Origin: Lachnospiraceae bacterium JLR.KK008
GTDB lineage: Bacteria; Bacillota; Clostridia; Lachnospirales; Lachnospiraceae
Reading direction: 5' to 3'
DNA: 64,000 nucleotides
Assembly: GCA_037015955.1 (NCBI GenBank)
Contig: CP143548.1
Span: forward strand, 1,140,001 to 1,204,000
Positions 29,308-55,305 of the stretch are shown here, in pieces. The first letter of the stretch is position 1, and the number at the start of each line of letters is the position of its first letter. The translations under genes were made by a program, and so were the position numbers. The notes below the pieces were generated by a model, which saw nothing but the letters and a program-made list of their open reading frames with translations, did no database searches and had not been told where the DNA came from.

Positions 29308-29336
29308 TTGACTATGTTTTTTTGCAATGGTATAAT
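29308..29336 (+). promoter_or_regulatory. promoter 1 of the ABC exporter operon
   Basis: TTGACT, 17 bases, TATAAT, with an extended -10 (TGG before TATAAT). The -10 box is the first six bases of the repeated 33-bp element. Confidence 0.75.
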
Positions 29337-29363
29337 ATCGAAGATATGATACCGCCGGATGGC
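29331..29363 (+). repeat. 33-bp promoter-leader element, copy 1
   Basis: Runs from the -10 TATAAT through ATCGAAGATATGATAC to CGCCGGATGGC. Identical to copy 2 over all 33 bases and to copy 3 except one G/A change at base 10. ATATC-GAA-GATAT is a small inverted repeat over the expected transcription start, and GCC-GGAT-GGC can form a short hairpin. Confidence 0.85.
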
Positions 29364-29390
29364 ATCAGTTATCAAGTCCGAAGGACATGA
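29346..29390 (+). CDS. putative leader peptide MIPPDGISYQVRRT
   Basis: Fourteen codons starting at the ATG inside copy 1 of the element, predicted at about +3 to +4 of the transcript, so translation would be leaderless. It contains Pro-Pro-Asp, a strong ribosome-stalling tripeptide when EF-P is limiting. The stop precedes the second copy of the element by one base. It may not be translated; identity at the DNA level could reflect an operator. Confidence 0.35.
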   Translation: MIPPDGISYQVRRT

Positions 29391-29423
29391 TATAATATCG
29401 AAGATATGATACCGCCGGATGGC
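29391..29423 (+). repeat. 33-bp promoter-leader element, copy 2
   Basis: Exact repeat of copy 1 with a 60-base period. The -10 is extended (TGATATAAT) but the -35 position (GTTATC) is poor, so this start may depend on an activator or be secondary. Confidence 0.85.
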
Positions 29424-29540
29424 GTGATATTAGACAGGTACAAAGGAGAGAACAATATATGGGAGAAAAGGCGCCGGTCATTGCGGTGCGTGATCTGTAT
29501 AAAATATATCGGATCGGGGAGACAAAAGTACGCGCTCTGA
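29406..29540 (+). CDS. putative leader frame MIPPDGVILD..., overlapping the ABC ATPase start
   Basis: A 44-codon frame opening at the ATG of copy 2. It shares MIPPDG with the other two copies, then diverges and runs out of frame across the ATPase start codon. If translated, ribosomes here would interfere or couple with initiation of the ATPase gene. The extension past the shared part may be incidental. Confidence 0.25.
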   Translation: MIPPDGVILDRYKGENNIWEKRRRSLRCVICIKYIGSGRQKYAL

Positions 29541-30184
29541 ACGGTGTGGATTTTACAATCCGGAGGGGACAGTTCTGTTCGATCGTCGGAGCTTCCGGTT
29601 CCGGAAAGTCTACGCTGCTCAATATGCTGGCGGGGCTGGAAAAACCGACCAAGGGAGAGATCGTGATCGCCGGGGAGCATATGGAAAAAAAGAGTGAGAA
29701 TGAGCTTGTCCGGTTCCGCCAGGCACATATCGGATTTATCTTTCAGTCATTTAATCTGATGGCGACAATGAATGCGGTGGAGAATGTGGCGCTGCCTTTG
29801 ACGTTTCAGGGAATGGAGCGCAAAAAGCGCACCAGACTGGCGGAGCAGATGCTCGATATGGTAGGGCTCCGGAAATATAAAAAGCATAAACCGACACAGA
29901 TGTCAGGTGGACAGCAGCAGAGAGTGGGGGTCGCCAGGGCGCTTGTCGTACAGCCGGAGATTATTTTTGCCGATGAGCCAACCGGCAATCTGGACTCATC
30001 TACATCGAGGGAAGTGATGGAGCTCATGCAGCGAATTGTCCGGGAAAAGGGACAGACACTGATTATGGTCACACATGACAATGATCTGGCGCGGTTTGCG
30101 GACCGGATTTTTCATATCAGAGATGGAAAGATTCTGCGGATTGAGGAGAACAGCCAAACAGGCAGAGAGACAGAGGGGATTTAA
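29459..30184 (+). CDS. MacB/LolD-type ABC transporter ATP-binding protein
   Basis: 241 residues. Walker A GASGSGKST near residue 42, Q-loop in FIFQSFNLMATM, signature MSGGQQQRVGVARAL near 147, Walker B IIFADEPTGNLD and the switch His in MVTHDNDLA. These details place it in the MacB/LolD/FtsE group that powers mechanotransmission rather than import. The partner permease is two genes on, with a large surface protein between. AAAGGAGAG precedes the ATG. Read from the tandem promoters with the 33-bp element. Confidence 0.93.
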   Translation: MGEKAPVIAVRDLYKIYRIGETKVRALNGVDFTIRRGQFCSIVGASGSGKSTLLNMLAGLEKPTKGEIVIAGEHMEKKSENELVRFRQAHIGFIFQSFNLMATMNAVENVALPLTFQGMERKKRTRLAEQMLDMVGLRKYKKHKPTQMSGGQQQRVGVARALVVQPEIIFADEPTGNLDSSTSREVMELMQRIVREKGQTLIMVTHDNDLARFADRIFHIRDGKILRIEENSQTGRETEGI

Positions 30185-30190
30185 AACAAG

Positions 30191-31903
30191 ATGAAAAAAA
30201 GGGGAAAAAGGTTTGCAATTCTGGCACTGTGTATGCTGCTGATGGCAACGCATATTACAGCCTATGCGGATGATGACGATGAGGAAAGGGACAGCTATTC
30301 CAACGAGGCAGACGAGGACGAGATCGCGGACGCGGTCAACCGCCTGTCGGCGTATTTAAAAAATCTGAAACTGATCAACGGAGAGCAGCTTACGGATGAG
30401 CAGTTGAAAGCGCTGGAAAAAATATGCAATGACGCGCGTAATTATATTGCCGGCACGGATGACATCACACTGCCGATGGTAGAGACACAGGTCTCAGAGG
30501 CCAAAGCGATGATGGATGCCTATGTGCAGAAGTGTCTGTCGGATCGTCCACAGTCTACGATCGACTATCTGGCAGTCGGCAATCTCTATGATTCGCCGGT
30601 GGCGAAGTACGGGGAAGGTGTGCTGCTGATCCTGCCGATTCTGAATCTGGGAGAGGAAGATCTGACGAATGTTATTGTAACGCCTGTTATTTCCAATTCA
30701 GTGAAGGAATGGCCGTTTGAGATCAGCCGCACGGGATATGCGGAAGAGATCGCAGAGATCAAGGGCAGTCACAATATGGAGGAGGCTTATGCCAACCACG
30801 GGGAAGTACGCTATGCGCTTGCCACGAGGCAGGACGTGCTCACCGGGTATTATAAGCTGGACTTCAACGTCGTCTATGAGAGAGAGGGAAAGCCAGAGAA
30901 GGCTGTCCTGTCCACGTTTGTCAGGGCAGAGGGAAAGTCCGACAGCGGGAAGATTGACGAGCCGGAGAAGGACGAGAAGACTTCCACGCCCCGCATCATC
31001 GTCACCGGGTTTGAGACGGACCCGCAGGAAGTATTTGCCGGTAGCACTTTTATGCTGACGATCCATGTGAAAAATACGTCCCAGAAGACAGCCGTCTCCA
31101 ATATAGAGTTCGATCTGAAGGCGGCTGAGGAAGGCAAAGATGAGAATACGCTCTATGCCGCGTTTCTGCCGACTTCCGGGTCCAATACAATCTATGTACC
31201 TTCGATCCCTTGCGGGGGCGAAAAAGAATTGCAGATCGAGATGACGGCCAAGGCGGATCTGGTTCAGAAACCTTACGCCATCGATATGACGATGAAATAC
31301 GAGGACCACGAGTATAATCCTTATGAAAATGTGACAAGTTTGTCAGTTCCGGTCAGGCAGCTTTCCCGCATTGAGTACAGCACAGTGGAAGTTTTGCCGG
31401 AATCCATAACGCCGGGCGGGCAGGCCAATGTGGTGTTCTCTGTCTACAATACAGGGAAGACGACGCTGTACAATGTCAAGGTGCGGTTTGAGGATGAGAC
31501 AGTGTCCGGTGGCGACTGCTTTGTAGGAAAGCTGGATTCCGGAGCTACCGGCAATGTGGACGCCATGTTGACAGGTGTGATGCCGACGACGGACGACGGA
31601 ACGGTCAGGACGATCATTTCCTATGAGAATGATGCCGGTGAAGTGACGGAGACAGAGACGGAGATCTCACTGTGGGTAGAAGAGGAAATGATTGACGAGA
31701 TGGACTATATACCAGAAGAGATCCCGGAGGAAGAACCGAGCAGGCTGCCGGTCATATTGGGAACGACTGCTGCTGCCTTAGTCGTGCTGGTGACAGTGGT
31801 CGTGCTGCTTATCAGGCGGAAGAGGAAAAAGAAAGCGGAGAAGGACCTGGCGGAAGATCTGGCGGATATTTTGAAGGACGACAGTGAGGAAAAGGGAGAA
31901 TAA
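30191..31903 (+). CDS. membrane-anchored surface protein with CARDB/NEW3-like domains
   Basis: 570 residues. Signal peptide (RFAILALCMLLMATHITAYA), an acidic helical stretch, then at least two Ig-like beta domains of the CARDB/NEW3 kind (IIVTGFETDPQEVFAGSTFM near residue 265 and VEVLPESITPGGQANVVFSV near 400). A single membrane segment near 515-540 and an acidic cytoplasmic tail follow. Such proteins sit next to MacB-like exporters in Gram-positive bacteria, probably as the extracellular adaptor. It begins 7 bases after the ATPase and ends two bases before the permease ATG. Confidence 0.8.
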   Translation: MKKRGKRFAILALCMLLMATHITAYADDDDEERDSYSNEADEDEIADAVNRLSAYLKNLKLINGEQLTDEQLKALEKICNDARNYIAGTDDITLPMVETQVSEAKAMMDAYVQKCLSDRPQSTIDYLAVGNLYDSPVAKYGEGVLLILPILNLGEEDLTNVIVTPVISNSVKEWPFEISRTGYAEEIAEIKGSHNMEEAYANHGEVRYALATRQDVLTGYYKLDFNVVYEREGKPEKAVLSTFVRAEGKSDSGKIDEPEKDEKTSTPRIIVTGFETDPQEVFAGSTFMLTIHVKNTSQKTAVSNIEFDLKAAEEGKDENTLYAAFLPTSGSNTIYVPSIPCGGEKELQIEMTAKADLVQKPYAIDMTMKYEDHEYNPYENVTSLSVPVRQLSRIEYSTVEVLPESITPGGQANVVFSVYNTGKTTLYNVKVRFEDETVSGGDCFVGKLDSGATGNVDAMLTGVMPTTDDGTVRTIISYENDAGEVTETETEISLWVEEEMIDEMDYIPEEIPEEEPSRLPVILGTTAAALVVLVTVVVLLIRRKRKKKAEKDLAEDLADILKDDSEEKGE

Positions 31904-31904
31904 C

Positions 31905-33278
31905 ATGCGTTTTCGAGATCTTTTCAGTATGAGCGCGGCAAGTCTCTGGAAGCGGAAAGTGCGTACGGTGCTGACAGTGCTGGGCGTGGTGATCGGTACG
32001 GCTTCTATCGTCGTCATGGTTTCGCTGGGGCTGGGGCTGAATCGTTCCACGATGCAGAATATTGAGGAAAACGGCGGCCTGACAACGATCGAGGTGCAGG
32101 AAGCGAGCCAGTATATGGACAGTAGTGAGACGTCGGCGGAGAAAGACCAAAAACGCCTGGATGATGAATTCGTGGAGACAATCAGCACTCATCCTCACGT
32201 CAAACTTGTCTCCCCGGTACTCAAGTTTTATGTGCTGGCGAAATGCGGTGTATATGAGAACAGCTATATGGAGCTGCGGGGAATGAGCAGTGAGGCATTG
32301 CAGAGTATGAATTTTCCGCTTGCATCCGGCAGTCTGCCTCTCTCCGAGGACAGTCTGGAACTGCTCTATGGCAATCAGATCCTGGCGGAGTTTCAGAATC
32401 CGAAGACAGGTTCCGGCTATTGGCTGGACGGTACATTGCCGGACATCGATCTGGAAAAAGACGGAGTCTTTCTCGTCTATGATATGGACAGTTATTATGC
32501 GGCACAGAATTCTTCCGGCGGACTGCCCGGAGAGAGTGGACAGACTGCCGGAAAGCCGCCGAAGAAATATCTGGCTCAGTGTGCAGGCATCATAGACGGC
32601 GGGATGGATACGTATAAATCTTACAGCTGGGGTGTGTACTGTAATATCAAGGCGCTGGAAGCACAGCTCAGGCGGGTGTTTAAAAACAAGGTTGTACCCG
32701 GGCAGCCGACGACCGCTACCGGGAAACCGTACAAAGAACTCTACTACAGTGAGATCTATGTCGAAGTCGACGAGATGGAAAACGTGGCTGAAGTCCAGAA
32801 ATGGATCACGGATATGGGCTATCAGACATACAGCAATTCTGACTGGGTAGAATCCACAAAAACACAGTACGGATATATTCAGGCGGTGCTTGGCGGTATC
32901 GGTGCCGTGTCGCTGATCGTGGCGGCGATCGGGATTACGAATACGATGATGATGTCAATCTATGAGAGGACGAAGGAGATCGGTGTCATGAAAGTGATCG
33001 GCTGTGATATGAGAGACATCCGCACATTATTTTTGATGGAGGCGGGATTTATCGGGTTGATCGGCGGCGTGGCCGGACTTTTGTTCAGTCTGCTGATTTC
33101 TTTTGTCATCAATCGAGTCGTGGCCGGTATGGGGATGGAAATGACACTCTCATATATTCCTCTGTGGCTGGCCGGTTCGTCGGTCGTTTTTGCCGTTCTG
33201 ATCGGCATGACAGCCGGATTTTTCCCGGCGCTGCGCGCGATGCGGCTGAGTCCGCTGGCAGCGATCAGAAGTGAATAG
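31905..33278 (+). CDS. MacB/FtsX-type ABC transporter permease
   Basis: 457 residues. One membrane segment near residue 20-45 (VRTVLTVLGVVIGTASIVVM), a large extracellular MacB-like periplasmic domain, then three membrane segments at the C-terminus (GAVSLIVAAIGITNTMMMS, and the FtsX motif YERTKEIGVMKVIGC between). Ends ALRAMRLSPLAAIRSE, typical of the family. Likely exports a peptide, antibiotic or lipoprotein-related substrate, or acts on envelope enzymes. The ATG at 31905 follows AGGGAGA. Last gene of the operon. Confidence 0.92.
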   Translation: MRFRDLFSMSAASLWKRKVRTVLTVLGVVIGTASIVVMVSLGLGLNRSTMQNIEENGGLTTIEVQEASQYMDSSETSAEKDQKRLDDEFVETISTHPHVKLVSPVLKFYVLAKCGVYENSYMELRGMSSEALQSMNFPLASGSLPLSEDSLELLYGNQILAEFQNPKTGSGYWLDGTLPDIDLEKDGVFLVYDMDSYYAAQNSSGGLPGESGQTAGKPPKKYLAQCAGIIDGGMDTYKSYSWGVYCNIKALEAQLRRVFKNKVVPGQPTTATGKPYKELYYSEIYVEVDEMENVAEVQKWITDMGYQTYSNSDWVESTKTQYGYIQAVLGGIGAVSLIVAAIGITNTMMMSIYERTKEIGVMKVIGCDMRDIRTLFLMEAGFIGLIGGVAGLLFSLLISFVINRVVAGMGMEMTLSYIPLWLAGSSVVFAVLIGMTAGFFPALRAMRLSPLAAIRSE

Positions 33279-49049: not shown

Positions 49050-49144
49050 CATCCGGCGAACCATGAGATCCGGGTGTCAAAAGCCTGTATGTTTATTTCT
49101 GTTTTCCGTTCTGTATCATTAATCTGCTTTCGCTCAAAGACTAC

Positions 49145-49296
49145 GGACATAAGAATTTCTAAATGTTCTGCTCAAAAGCATCATTTCGGAAGGCAAGCGG
49201 CTGATATTCGCCATCCGGGCTCAGATCAGCCTTTTACGGACATCCCTGTCCGCAAATTGCCTGACTGGAACAGAACATTAAGAAATACTAATGTCC
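49145..49296. repeat. structured 152-bp element with 26-nt terminal inverted repeats
   Basis: The two ends (49145-49170 and 49271-49296) match as inverted repeats at 23 of 26 positions. Inside, AGGCAA/TTGCCT (49191/49257), GGCTGAT/ATCAGCC (49199/49225) and CGGACA-TCCC-TGTCCG (49237-49252) form three nested or adjacent helices, giving a branched structure. No coding frame is evident. It could be a miniature inverted-repeat transposable element or a structured RNA; strand is not known. Confidence 0.6.
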
Positions 49297-49380
49297 TTCA
49301 TATCTCGCGTTCATCAGATTATTGATACAGATTGGCAATGATAAAAAGAAAATAAGGCTTTTGACATCCGGATGCTTATA

Positions 49381-52222: not shown

Positions 52223-52251
52223 ATGACTTACGGCAGACATTAAGGTATAAT
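52223..52251 (+). promoter_or_regulatory. promoter of the BMP/DUF5722 operon
   Basis: ATGACT, 17 bases, TATAAT. The -10 begins copy 3 of the 33-bp element. Confidence 0.6.
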
Positions 52252-52278
52252 ATCAAAGATATGATACCGCCGGATGGC
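52246..52278 (+). repeat. 33-bp promoter-leader element, copy 3
   Basis: TATAATATC-A-AAGATATGATAC followed by CGCCGGATGGC; it differs from copies 1 and 2 only by A for G at base 10. It lies 23 kb from them, before an unrelated operon on the same strand. Confidence 0.85.
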
Positions 52279-52314: not shown

Positions 52315-53574
52315 ATGAGACTTCCATTTATTGTTACTATAAAAAAATGTCTTTTTGTCACGGGAGCGATGCTCCTGTTTCTTTGTACGTGTACAGGCTG
52401 TGGAACAGGACAGGGCAGTGTGCACGATATGGAGAGGGAGAGCGAAGAGACAACGGAAGAACCGGAAACGAAAGAGGAAACAGAGGCCGCAGACAGTACA
52501 GATACGGCGGTACAGGGCGAGGCAGAGGAAATTTCCGGGGAAGATCATGACCGGAACCGCCGCAAAACGGGCGGGCCGGTGGCGCTTGTGATCGGCACAG
52601 GGCCGGCGATGGACGACGGATACAATCAGGCGGCCTTTGAGGGCGTACAGTCATATGCACAGTCCGCGGGAGTGACATATGCCTGTTACAGTGCGGAAAC
52701 CGATTCTCTGGAGGGCTATGAGGAGGCAGTGCTTTCGGCCATTGAGGACGGTGCGCAGCTCGTTGTCTGTGCCGGCTCTTATTTTGAGCAGGCGGTGGGC
52801 AGTCTGCAAAACAGGGACAGCGACATTTATTTTCTGCTGCTGGACGGCGTTCCCAAAGACGGTTCCGGTCATATGATGGACATCGCGCCGAACGTACACT
52901 GCACCTCTTATGATGAGGAGGAGGCAGGTTATCTGGCGGGGTATATGGCGGTTCTCGAAGGCTATACCAGGCTGGGATTTATCGGCGGCGGCAGACAGTT
53001 CCCCTCCGTGTGCCGGTACGGATACGGGTATATACAGGGGATCGATGATGCGGCGGTCTCTCTGGGAATCGGCGATGAGGTTTCTGTCGATTACTGGTAT
53101 GCGGATACCTTTCTTCCGAATGAGCAGATCGAGGAAACGGCGCTTGCGTGGTATACGTCGGGCACAGAGATTATCTTTGCCTGCGGTGGCGTTCTCTATC
53201 AGTCGGTGCTTGCTTCCGCGCAGGTCTGCGACGGCAGGCTGATCGGAGCGGATGTCGATCAGAGCAGCGTCTCGGAGCTTTTTCTCACTTCTGCCGTAAA
53301 AGGAATCCGGTCTTCGGTCATTACTGCACTGGATGACTTTTATGCGTCCGCAGGCATCTGGCCGGAGGAACTGGCCGGACAGACCATTGCCTACGGCGCG
53401 GAAAAGAAATGCATCGAGCTCCCCTCCTCGGAGGAGGCATGGCGTTTTGAACATGTGTCGACAGATGATTATCTACGGATACTTGCAGACTTAAAGACCG
53501 GAAAGATTCAGGTGTCTGATGAAATAGACATCTGTCCGGAGACGACGGTTTCGGTCATTTATCACGATCAGTAA
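52315..53574 (+). CDS. BMP-family (Med/TmpC) lipoprotein
   Basis: 419 residues. Signal peptide with lipobox CTGC, a low-complexity Glu/Thr linker, then a BMP-type periplasmic-binding fold (GPVALVIGTGPAMDDGYNQA near residue 85, GARL-like GYLAGYMAVLE near 210, GFIGGGRQFPSVCRYGYGYI near 225). Most relatives bind purine nucleosides for ABC import, but the usual permease and ATPase genes are missing here, so a sensory or structural role is possible. Operon with the DUF5722 gene. Controlled by copy 3 of the 33-bp element. Confidence 0.88.
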   Translation: MRLPFIVTIKKCLFVTGAMLLFLCTCTGCGTGQGSVHDMERESEETTEEPETKEETEAADSTDTAVQGEAEEISGEDHDRNRRKTGGPVALVIGTGPAMDDGYNQAAFEGVQSYAQSAGVTYACYSAETDSLEGYEEAVLSAIEDGAQLVVCAGSYFEQAVGSLQNRDSDIYFLLLDGVPKDGSGHMMDIAPNVHCTSYDEEEAGYLAGYMAVLEGYTRLGFIGGGRQFPSVCRYGYGYIQGIDDAAVSLGIGDEVSVDYWYADTFLPNEQIEETALAWYTSGTEIIFACGGVLYQSVLASAQVCDGRLIGADVDQSSVSELFLTSAVKGIRSSVITALDDFYASAGIWPEELAGQTIAYGAEKKCIELPSSEEAWRFEHVSTDDYLRILADLKTGKIQVSDEIDICPETTVSVIYHDQ

Positions 53575-53589
53575 CAGGAGGCTCGTCCC

Positions 53590-55305
53590 TTGCGCGAAGA
53601 AACACCCCATCATCAATTTTCCATAGCGGTTATCGGACTGTTTTTTGTCTTTCTTTTTTTCTTCTGTGGATGCGGGAGAAGCACATTTGTCAGTTCACGC
53701 GCCGATGCGGGTCAGCAGGCAGTGAAAGAGAGGGAACGCAGACTGACAGAGGGAAATGTAACGCTTTCTGCACGTGAGCTGGTATCTTATGGACAGATTG
53801 AAGCCTGTGTCATTCAGGATGATAAAAAGACGCTCTCACTTACTCTCACACTGCCGGATATTCCGGGGAGTGATGACGTCTATCTGTATCTGTTTGCGCT
53901 GGAGCCTTATGAATCTTATGAGACGCTCCGCCAGCCGGGCGCCGGCCCTGTCGCTGTCACAGAGAAATCAAGAAATTCACAATTTGTCTGGCCTTATGAG
54001 GAAGAGCAGTTATTTCAGCAATTTGTTCCCACACTGTGTATGGACGGGCAGTATGTGCCGCTGTCTCCGGGTATGTACATAAATAATCCGGAAACGATCG
54101 CAGATAATGCGGACAGCTATCCACAGACAAATTCCAAAAAAGGATTGCTGCTTGACCCACAGATGGTAGAGACTCCGCTTTTGGAGGACCTGCACTTGCA
54201 GCATGCGATCTATAATATTCCCCTTTCTCTGATTGTCGGGGAGACAACCAATGAAGTGTTTCCGACGATCACTTATTCGTATAAAGGGAAGGACTATCAA
54301 TTTGACGGCGCCGTCATAGCGAGTTATGATTATCTTTTCGGGTATCTTGAAGACCATGAGATATTGGCTACGGCCATTATCTTAAATGACTGGGACGAGC
54401 AATATCCGGAATTGATTCATCCACTGGCATATCGGGAAGGGACGGGCGCTTATTATTATGCGTTCAATACGGCGGAGGAAAAAGGCTGTCTCCATCTGGA
54501 GGCGATCGCCTCTTTTCTGACCGAGCGCTATTCGGGGAAGGAGCATGGCCTTGTCTCAAGCTGGGTCATCGCCAATGAAATCAATCAGCATAAGATCTGG
54601 AATTATATGGATACGGACGATATAGCGCTGTATGCCGCTGAGTTTGAGAAGGCCCTGCGGATTTTTTATACGGCGGCCAGGAGCAATTATGCGGGTGCGA
54701 AAGTCTATTTCAGTGTGGATCACGAATGGAACAGGGAAGGCAACGATAATACGGAATATTTTAACGGCATGGAATTGATCACACAGATCAATGAGATTGC
54801 CCGCCAGAAGGGAAATTACGACTGGGGACTGGCGATTCACCCCTATCCGGATCCTCTGACGCGGGTGAACTACTGGACGGAACAATATGATAAGACGATG
54901 GATGCGCCGCTGCTGACGCTGATGAATCTGAGTACGACAACAGATTTTATGAGTCAGGAAGAATATCTGGACAGAGCCGGACATGTGCGAAGCATTACCG
55001 TGACAGAGCTCGGATTTACGTCTGCTTCCGGGGAGAAACTGCAGGCGGCGGCCTTTGCATACTGCTATTATATTATTGATGATAATCCATATATCGAGGC
55101 TTTTATGATGAACCGTCAGACTGACGCGCCGGAGGAGATGCGGCAGGGATTGGCTTTTGGTATTTATGAGAGAGACCACACGAGTAAGTATATCAGAGAC
55201 GTGTTTCAATATATTGATACGGACGAGGCGGACCGCTATCTGGATTTCATGCTGAACATTCTGGGGGCTGACAGTCTGGAGGAGGCTTTGTCCTGGGCGC
55301 GGTAG
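53590..55305 (+). CDS. DUF5722 lipoprotein, glycoside-hydrolase-like
   Basis: 571 residues. Signal sequence with lipobox FCGC near residue 27, a beta-rich N-terminal part, then a TIM-barrel-like region of DUF5722 type (YYAFNTAEEKGCLHLEAIAS near 290, SSWVIANEINQHKIWNYM near 320 with a candidate acid-base Glu, and SITVTELGFTSASG near 465 with a possible nucleophile Glu). A cell-surface glycosidase is the likeliest role, with unknown substrate. The TTG start follows AGGAGG by 8 bases. It begins 15 bases after the BMP gene. Confidence 0.85.
   Translation: MREETPHHQFSIAVIGLFFVFLFFFCGCGRSTFVSSRADAGQQAVKERERRLTEGNVTLSARELVSYGQIEACVIQDDKKTLSLTLTLPDIPGSDDVYLYLFALEPYESYETLRQPGAGPVAVTEKSRNSQFVWPYEEEQLFQQFVPTLCMDGQYVPLSPGMYINNPETIADNADSYPQTNSKKGLLLDPQMVETPLLEDLHLQHAIYNIPLSLIVGETTNEVFPTITYSYKGKDYQFDGAVIASYDYLFGYLEDHEILATAIILNDWDEQYPELIHPLAYREGTGAYYYAFNTAEEKGCLHLEAIASFLTERYSGKEHGLVSSWVIANEINQHKIWNYMDTDDIALYAAEFEKALRIFYTAARSNYAGAKVYFSVDHEWNREGNDNTEYFNGMELITQINEIARQKGNYDWGLAIHPYPDPLTRVNYWTEQYDKTMDAPLLTLMNLSTTTDFMSQEEYLDRAGHVRSITVTELGFTSASGEKLQAAAFAYCYYIIDDNPYIEAFMMNRQTDAPEEMRQGLAFGIYERDHTSKYIRDVFQYIDTDEADRYLDFMLNILGADSLEEALSWAR

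Follow-up and report, generated by a model that had tools for sequence, protein, structure and literature searches.

A small palindromic repeat of Lachnospiraceae that begins at promoter −10 boxes, a putative non-autonomous mobile element

A 33-bp element occurs three times in a 64,000-nucleotide stretch of the genome of Lachnospiraceae bacterium JLR.KK008 (hereafter the window). It is best explained, with a probability of roughly three in four, as the left part of a small palindromic Lachnospiraceae repeat, a putative non-autonomous mobile element that would enter extended −10 boxes. The repeat is built of hairpins, begins at the −10, lies before genes in the sense orientation and occupies promoters that already exist in relatives lacking it. 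From these comparisons we infer that the repeat is mobile, that occupied sites arose by insertion rather than empty ones by loss, and that transcription starts from the left −10.

Repeat units in the window and their architecture

As the earlier note had described, the copies at 29331–29363 and 29391–29423 are identical, that at 52246–52278 differs from them at one base (G to A), and all three contain ATATC-RAA-GATAT. With up to three mismatches the 19-mer TATAATATCRAAGATATGA matched the window at exactly these three places, a number reached by none of 100 shuffles (mean 0.01). The −35 hexamers that the note had placed 17 bp upstream of copies 1 and 3 are borne out as TTGACT and ATGACT, respectively; copy 2, by reading, has no good −35 hexamer at this distance. 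Copy 1 belongs to a full 60-bp unit, in which a third hairpin, GTCC-GAA-GGAC, follows and the −10 of copy 2 forms the right end. Copies 2 and 3 end after the second hairpin, the third having been lost. The window therefore holds one full and one truncated unit at an exporter operon and one truncated unit at an operon encoding a BMP protein. The features, with the hairpins termed H1, H2 and H3, are as follows.

29308..29313, + strand: exporter-promoter −35 hexamer TTGACT, located outside the repeat, with a 17-bp spacer to the −10
29331..29336, + strand: left −10 TATAAT with extended −10 ATGG, the presumed insertion target by analogy with other loci
29337..29396, + strand: full 60-bp unit 1, comprising the second arm of H1, H2, H3 and then TATAAT (29391–29396)
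29329..29353, + strand: H1 of copy 1, with arms GGTATAATATC (29329–29339) and GATATGATACC (29343–29353) and loop GAA
29354..29363, + strand: H2 of copy 1, short form GCC-GGAT-GGC, with short-form relatives elsewhere in the family
29376..29386, + strand: H3 of copy 1, GTCC-GAA-GGAC; H3 covaries in the family
29397..29423, + strand: unit 2, which stops after H2
29459..33278, + strand: exporter operon downstream of units 1 and 2 (ABC ATPase, CARDB/DUF11-like protein and FtsX/MacB-like permease)
52223..52228, + strand: −35-like hexamer ATGACT of the BMP promoter (52223–52251), with a 17-bp spacer
52244..52278, + strand: copy 3, with H1 at 52244–52268 (−10 at 52246–52251) and H2 at 52269–52278, stopping after H2
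52315..55305, + strand: BMP (PnrA-like) and DUF5722 genes downstream of copy 3

Unit 1 has the same 60-bp period as an array of the repeat found before purC (see below), and its H1 has one mismatch to the family palindrome. Insertion at the two window sites is suggested by analogy with other loci, because neither offered an informative empty site in relatives.

Other features of these regions were noted in passing. The BMP and DUF5722 genes (52315–55305) are flanked by spoIIP and lepA, and the four best same-genus matches of the BMP protein share only 47–54% identity with it. The window's only Rfam match is a TwoAYGGAY RNA (RF01731) at 49138–49303 on the minus strand (112.3 bits versus a gathering score of 43). 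By eye, several of the relatives carrying exporter orthologues (L025–L028) have in common a TTAAGNTTT-like motif ∼20–40 bp before the −10, which might be a response-regulator box and which is absent from the window's exporter promoter.

In its full form the unit consists of H1 (GGTATAATATC-GACA-GATATTATACC), a variable H2 and H3 (CCATGTCC-GAA-GGACATGG), followed by another GGTATAAT, and units often stand in tandem. The plan common to the copies of the source genome is (Y)ATGG TATAATATC-GACA-GATATTATACC, then H2, then H3 as CATGTCC-GAA-GGACATG, often with another TATAAT; in the wider family H1 is the longer palindrome GGTATAATATC/GATATTATACC. Full units, which range from 60 to 113 bp, begin directly after a TATAAT (ATCGACAGATATTATACC...) and typically close with the second GGTATAAT, although a scan of right ends found no −10 there in 45 copies. 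H1 and H3 lie near the unit ends, and no long terminal inverted repeat was seen by eye. A direct repeat, (Y)ATGGTATAAT, stands on both sides of full copies; it could be either a duplication or part of the element itself. By reading, the inner arm of H1, ATTATACC, is complementary to the target GGTATAAT. The size and sequence of H2 differ between lineages: short forms include GCCC-GAAT-GGGC, TGCC-GGAT-GGCA and GCGC...GCGC, and a 55-nt form is common to several metagenome-assembled genomes (MAGs).

Eight copies (L087, L109, L111, L116, L123, L125, L150 and L172) continue beyond the right −10 with an extra right-hand module, RTNCACGAAAGC(AATGAGCAGTGC...); the module was not found without H1 among the loci examined. 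A leaderless leader peptide, MIPPDG, whose ATG would lie 9 nt past the −10 of the copies at purC and in the window, was considered and rejected as a local variant, because most of the family has ATATT rather than ATATG in that arm.

Distribution of the repeat

Searches with the window sequence itself found little. With up to three mismatches the 33-mer occurred only as the three window copies in the 3.19-Mb source genome, and in none of nine other same-genus or 396 other family genomes; an exact 20-mer had no matches in GTDB genomes. These scans are not taken to show that the family is missing from those genomes, since the window copies represent a local variant, and the 33-mer seems unique simply through the 4-base loop or other differences of its relatives. 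One relative with such a loop, located by a gapped pattern, lies before purC, where four 60-bp units stand in tandem. A sequence-only model built from seven copies (window and purC) then gave 20 matches at 13 loci of the source genome at E≤1, 18 of them at 1.1e-7 or better. By reading, the next gene is in the sense direction at all 13 loci (the gene was placed by a simple ORF picker at 11, the ORF at L078 being weak, and separately at purC and dnaE). In other same-genus genomes the best matches were weaker (2.2e-6 in G005, 7.7e-5 in G006, 3.9e-4 in G002 and 5.3e-4 in G003) and are read as family members; most same-genus matches near E 0.1–1 are probably chance.

The exact palindrome TATAATATCGAMAGATATTATAC was found in 92 stretches, amounting to 104 distinct copies, in an 84,980-species GTDB collection, and 78 of the 80 titles listed are Lachnospiraceae or other Clostridia/Eubacteriales (one reads only ‘uncultured bacterium’). 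Three of the 104 copies, at L088 (Shewanella), L090 (Gastranaerophilales) and L166, which resembles L090, look like chance and were dropped. The palindrome had no match in viral contigs, and a long-form unit (from L100) had none among 72,556 records of plasmids and 50,697 of phages. At E≤0.1 a 30-position model gave 19 matches in the source genome, 5 in Anaerocolumna sp. MB42-C2, 24 in MAG ABMPRH_221_0, 18 in COE1 and at least 115 in MAG SRR14038237_bin.83, for which 150 candidates were scored. Dispersed, similar copies, here 5 to at least 115 in each of five genomes, are a trait of miniature inverted-repeat transposable elements (MITEs) and other small interspersed repeats. No copy with a gene of its own and no mobilising enzyme was seen in the sequences analysed, which weighs against mobility.

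The source-genome carriers are unrelated and include purC, dnaE, pcrA, a glycosyltransferase and the ABC exporter. The names of dnaE, pcrA, purC, leuB, the D-lactate dehydrogenase, the glycosyltransferase, and the NYN, TPP-enzyme and SH3-protein genes derive from the first 100–110 residues only. From the same length of sequence the threonine-synthase-like gene, here thrC, had no NCBIfam match, so its name, like that of the ABC transporter at L075, is our own reading.

The earlier note had proposed that a shared regulator links the exporter to the BMP/DUF5722 operon. In such a scheme the palindrome over the −10 and +1 would be an operator bound by a dimeric repressor, and all carriers, the exporter and BMP operon among them, would form one regulon. 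The palindrome does cover the −10 and start in all three window copies, and its left arm is well kept. Members of the family, however, also precede unrelated genes, both at the 13 source-genome loci and across many further Lachnospiraceae, and no copy of the repeat lies upstream of the exporter orthologues in five same-genus genomes, so a shared regulator is unsupported. Copy numbers of this order also argue against a set of operators. In addition, among 14 first units of the source genome the left TATAAT is intact in every one, while its mirror, ATTATA, is intact in four and the second arm has decayed in the other ten, a pattern that fits a promoter better than the operator of a dimer. The asymmetry is no obvious artefact of the search, because both arms were in the search model. 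A common regulon is thus highly improbable, and near-identical promoter pieces at unrelated operons need not imply one.

Promoter placement and relatives lacking the repeat

The view that the element covers the −10 and the probable transcript start, already taken in the earlier note, is supported by the orientation of the copies, the placement of −35 hexamers and the promoters kept in relatives. Orientation was counted for 93 copies, the 101 retained less six with the opposite loop and two inside large ORFs, with genes called by a simple ORF picker. The downstream gene was in the sense direction for 72 copies and antisense for 10, with 11 at a contig end (binomial p 1e-12, an optimistic value because tandem copies were counted singly); 10 of 82 copies therefore face away from the called downstream gene. 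Upstream genes showed no such bias (42 versus 38, with 13 at a contig end; binomial p 0.74). The earlier note had held that copies scattered inside genes or at unrelated positions would speak against its proposal; the genes carrying the repeat are indeed unrelated, yet its position is nearly always before a gene start and in the sense direction.

The −35 is not part of the repeat: what the copies have in common before the −10 amounts to some five bases (YATGG). Among 83 flanks without an upstream unit, copies with the opposite loop included, TTG occurred 10 times at a spacing of 16 bp and 9 times each at 17 and 18 bp, compared with 0–4 at each of 35 other spacings, and 30 of the 83 had a good −35 (at least four of six matches at 16–18 bp).

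The upstream regions of ten occupied promoters were compared with those of orthologues in same-genus genomes in 56 formal comparisons (40 plus 16); orthologues of the TPP enzyme and further matches were found but left out of this set. The shuffle-tested comparisons serve as the objective test, since MAFFT alignments blur the junctions. Upstream homology was detected in eight comparisons, each beating all 100 shuffles, and in none of the other 48, which include all five for the exporter and all seven for the ABC transporter at L075. In four of the eight the element starts exactly on a −10-like hexamer of the relative: TATAAT for ldhA in G003, TACACT and TAAACT for leuB in G006 and G007, respectively, and TATAAT for the glycosyltransferase in G002. 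The start is 1 nt off the −10 for the NYN gene in G009 (TATACT), 4 nt off for the glycosyltransferase in G006 (TAAGAT) and 5 nt off GGTATGAT for pcrA in G008. The pcrA region of G002 has upstream homology and no −10 at the junction. Occupied and empty sites therefore exist at orthologous places, and the junction lies within 5 nt of a −10 in seven of the eight informative comparisons. Carriers and relatives without the element also have equal spacing between −35 and −10 at leuB (18), thrC (17), the glycosyltransferase (17) and purC (17); at thrC and purC only the spacing counts, because upstream homology did not beat the shuffles. Both element edges can be read at ldhA, where the G003 site may be collapsed rather than never occupied, a suspicion that arises because G003 keeps a piece resembling the right-hand module. 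At several loci, other than the two in the window, relatives without the repeat thus share the upstream DNA and promoter of the carrier, with the element starting at or near the −10.

These comparisons bear on a further explanation, in which a promoter-bearing repeat lands anywhere, with no preference for −10 targets, and is selected where a −35 happens to lie before its own TATAAT. The repeat does carry an extended −10, only 30 of the 83 flanks have the good −35 described above, and the left −10 is nearly always TATAAT in carriers while it varies in relatives (TATACT, TAAGAT and TACACT), all of which such selection could accommodate. It does not readily account for relatives without the repeat that already have the same −35, spacing and −10 at the junction, and this explanation is very improbable.

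Leader RNA, possible mechanism and known repeat families

Compensatory changes show that the hairpins H2 and H3 covary. In the long form of H2, 18 pairs form in 99.5% of cells across 24 of 26 sequences (L126 and L134 being omitted from the 26 rows), and 27 cells are changed on both sides, a number reached by none of 500 shuffles. A second measure, the count of further pair types, failed for this hairpin (13, reached by 470 of 500 shuffles). Of 54 H3 hairpins in 120 units, the 18 distinct ones with eight pairs and a 3-base loop were counted, having been chosen as perfect hairpins; five of the eight pairs are changed on both sides (5 of 500 shuffles were as high), as are 18 cells (0 of 500). An effect of the element at the RNA 5' end, which the earlier note had raised, is possible on this evidence, because both hairpins covary.

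It could be argued that H2 and H3 act as a 5' stability element or attenuator and that this function, rather than mobility, keeps the repeat in place. The covariation of hairpins within the predicted leader, the predominance of the sense orientation (72 versus 10) and the two-unit exporter leader, which folds better than shuffles (z −2.34), are all in keeping with such a role. Conversely, the carrier genes are unrelated, H2 varies in size and sequence between lineages, and window copies 2 and 3 lack H3, the BMP leader of copy 3 folding no better than shuffles (z 0.32). Rfam searches gave no match in three loci at E≤5, and in eight further loci gave seven matches at E≤1, none of them over the element. 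A structured leader as the reason for the repeat is therefore improbable. One of the loci searched contains a long hairpin (L112 763–859) whose two strands both match microRNA precursor models; as the scores are below the gathering scores, it is simply a strong inverted repeat.

If the repeat is a non-autonomous element that inserts at extended −10 boxes, it would rebuild a −10 at its right end, so that the gene stays transcribable. Transcription would proceed from the left −10 with the native −35, the mRNA would start inside the element, and H2 and H3 would become a new 5' leader in place of the transcript's former start. Recombination between the repeated −10 blocks could generate the tandem arrays and also their loss. 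Because the strands of the −10 region are parted in the open complex, insertion by a single-strand mechanism would fit. A tentative and rather unlikely extension is that the promoter acts as a landing pad: the element, with its GGTATAAT-complementary strand, would enter the −10 melted by RNA polymerase, possibly in single-stranded form and by means of an HUH-type transposase. On this reading the element would point with transcription because it enters the −10 of an open complex, and the −10 restored at the far end would keep the host gene on. Choice of target by base pairing of ATTATACC to GGTATAAT is plausible from the sequences, and is conceivable because the cut sites of IS200/IS605 elements are chosen by pairing of the element's guide with the flanking target (PMC6006769).

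The repeat shares features with several known families, compared here through the available parts of the sources. BOX elements of Streptococcus pneumoniae are likewise small, modular, hairpin-rich, Gram-positive, probably non-autonomous mobile and variable in composition; they are over-represented between convergent genes, whereas the Lachnospiraceae repeat lies before genes, in sense, starting at the −10, a contrast drawn from their description only (PMC3049150). REP/BIME sequences with TnpA-REP and the IS200/IS605 elements are similar in having palindromes of 20–65 nt at high copy number, but neither a GTAG/CGTC tag nor a link to a Y1 transposase was noted for the present repeat (PMC6006769, PMC3733652). 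The complementarity of the H1 arm ATTATACC to GGTATAAT recalls IS200/IS605 guide pairing; in those elements a tetranucleotide pairs beside the hairpin foot, whereas here 8–11 bases pair inside one hairpin (PMC6006769, PMC3733652). Correia elements of Neisseria are also small repeats with promoter sequence at their ends and structured RNA, but have 26-bp terminal inverted repeats and create promoters (PMC2649163, PMC3049150). No such inverted repeats were seen in the Lachnospiraceae repeat, which lies in promoters that pre-exist in relatives. None of the BOX, REP, IS200/IS605 and Correia families is described in those parts of the sources as starting at −10 boxes. Searches of open-access literature gave nothing relevant on repeats, MITEs or this sequence in Lachnospiraceae or on promoter-targeting elements, although the 11-mer GGTATAATATC occurs in two papers. 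Small interspersed repeats are common, but none that both begins at the −10 hexamer of a pre-existing promoter and rebuilds a −10 at its other end was found in that literature. If the proposed explanation is true, a repeat family has rewritten the transcription starts and 5' leaders of essential genes (dnaE, pcrA and purC) in gut Lachnospiraceae, and would offer a direct way of testing whether mobile DNA targets promoters in the open complex.

In the pcrA promoter of G008 a different tandem repeat (82-bp period, 2.5 copies; L191 1277–1479) starts directly after GGTATGAT; under the landing-pad reading, more than one repeat family might share transposition targeted to the promoter bubble.
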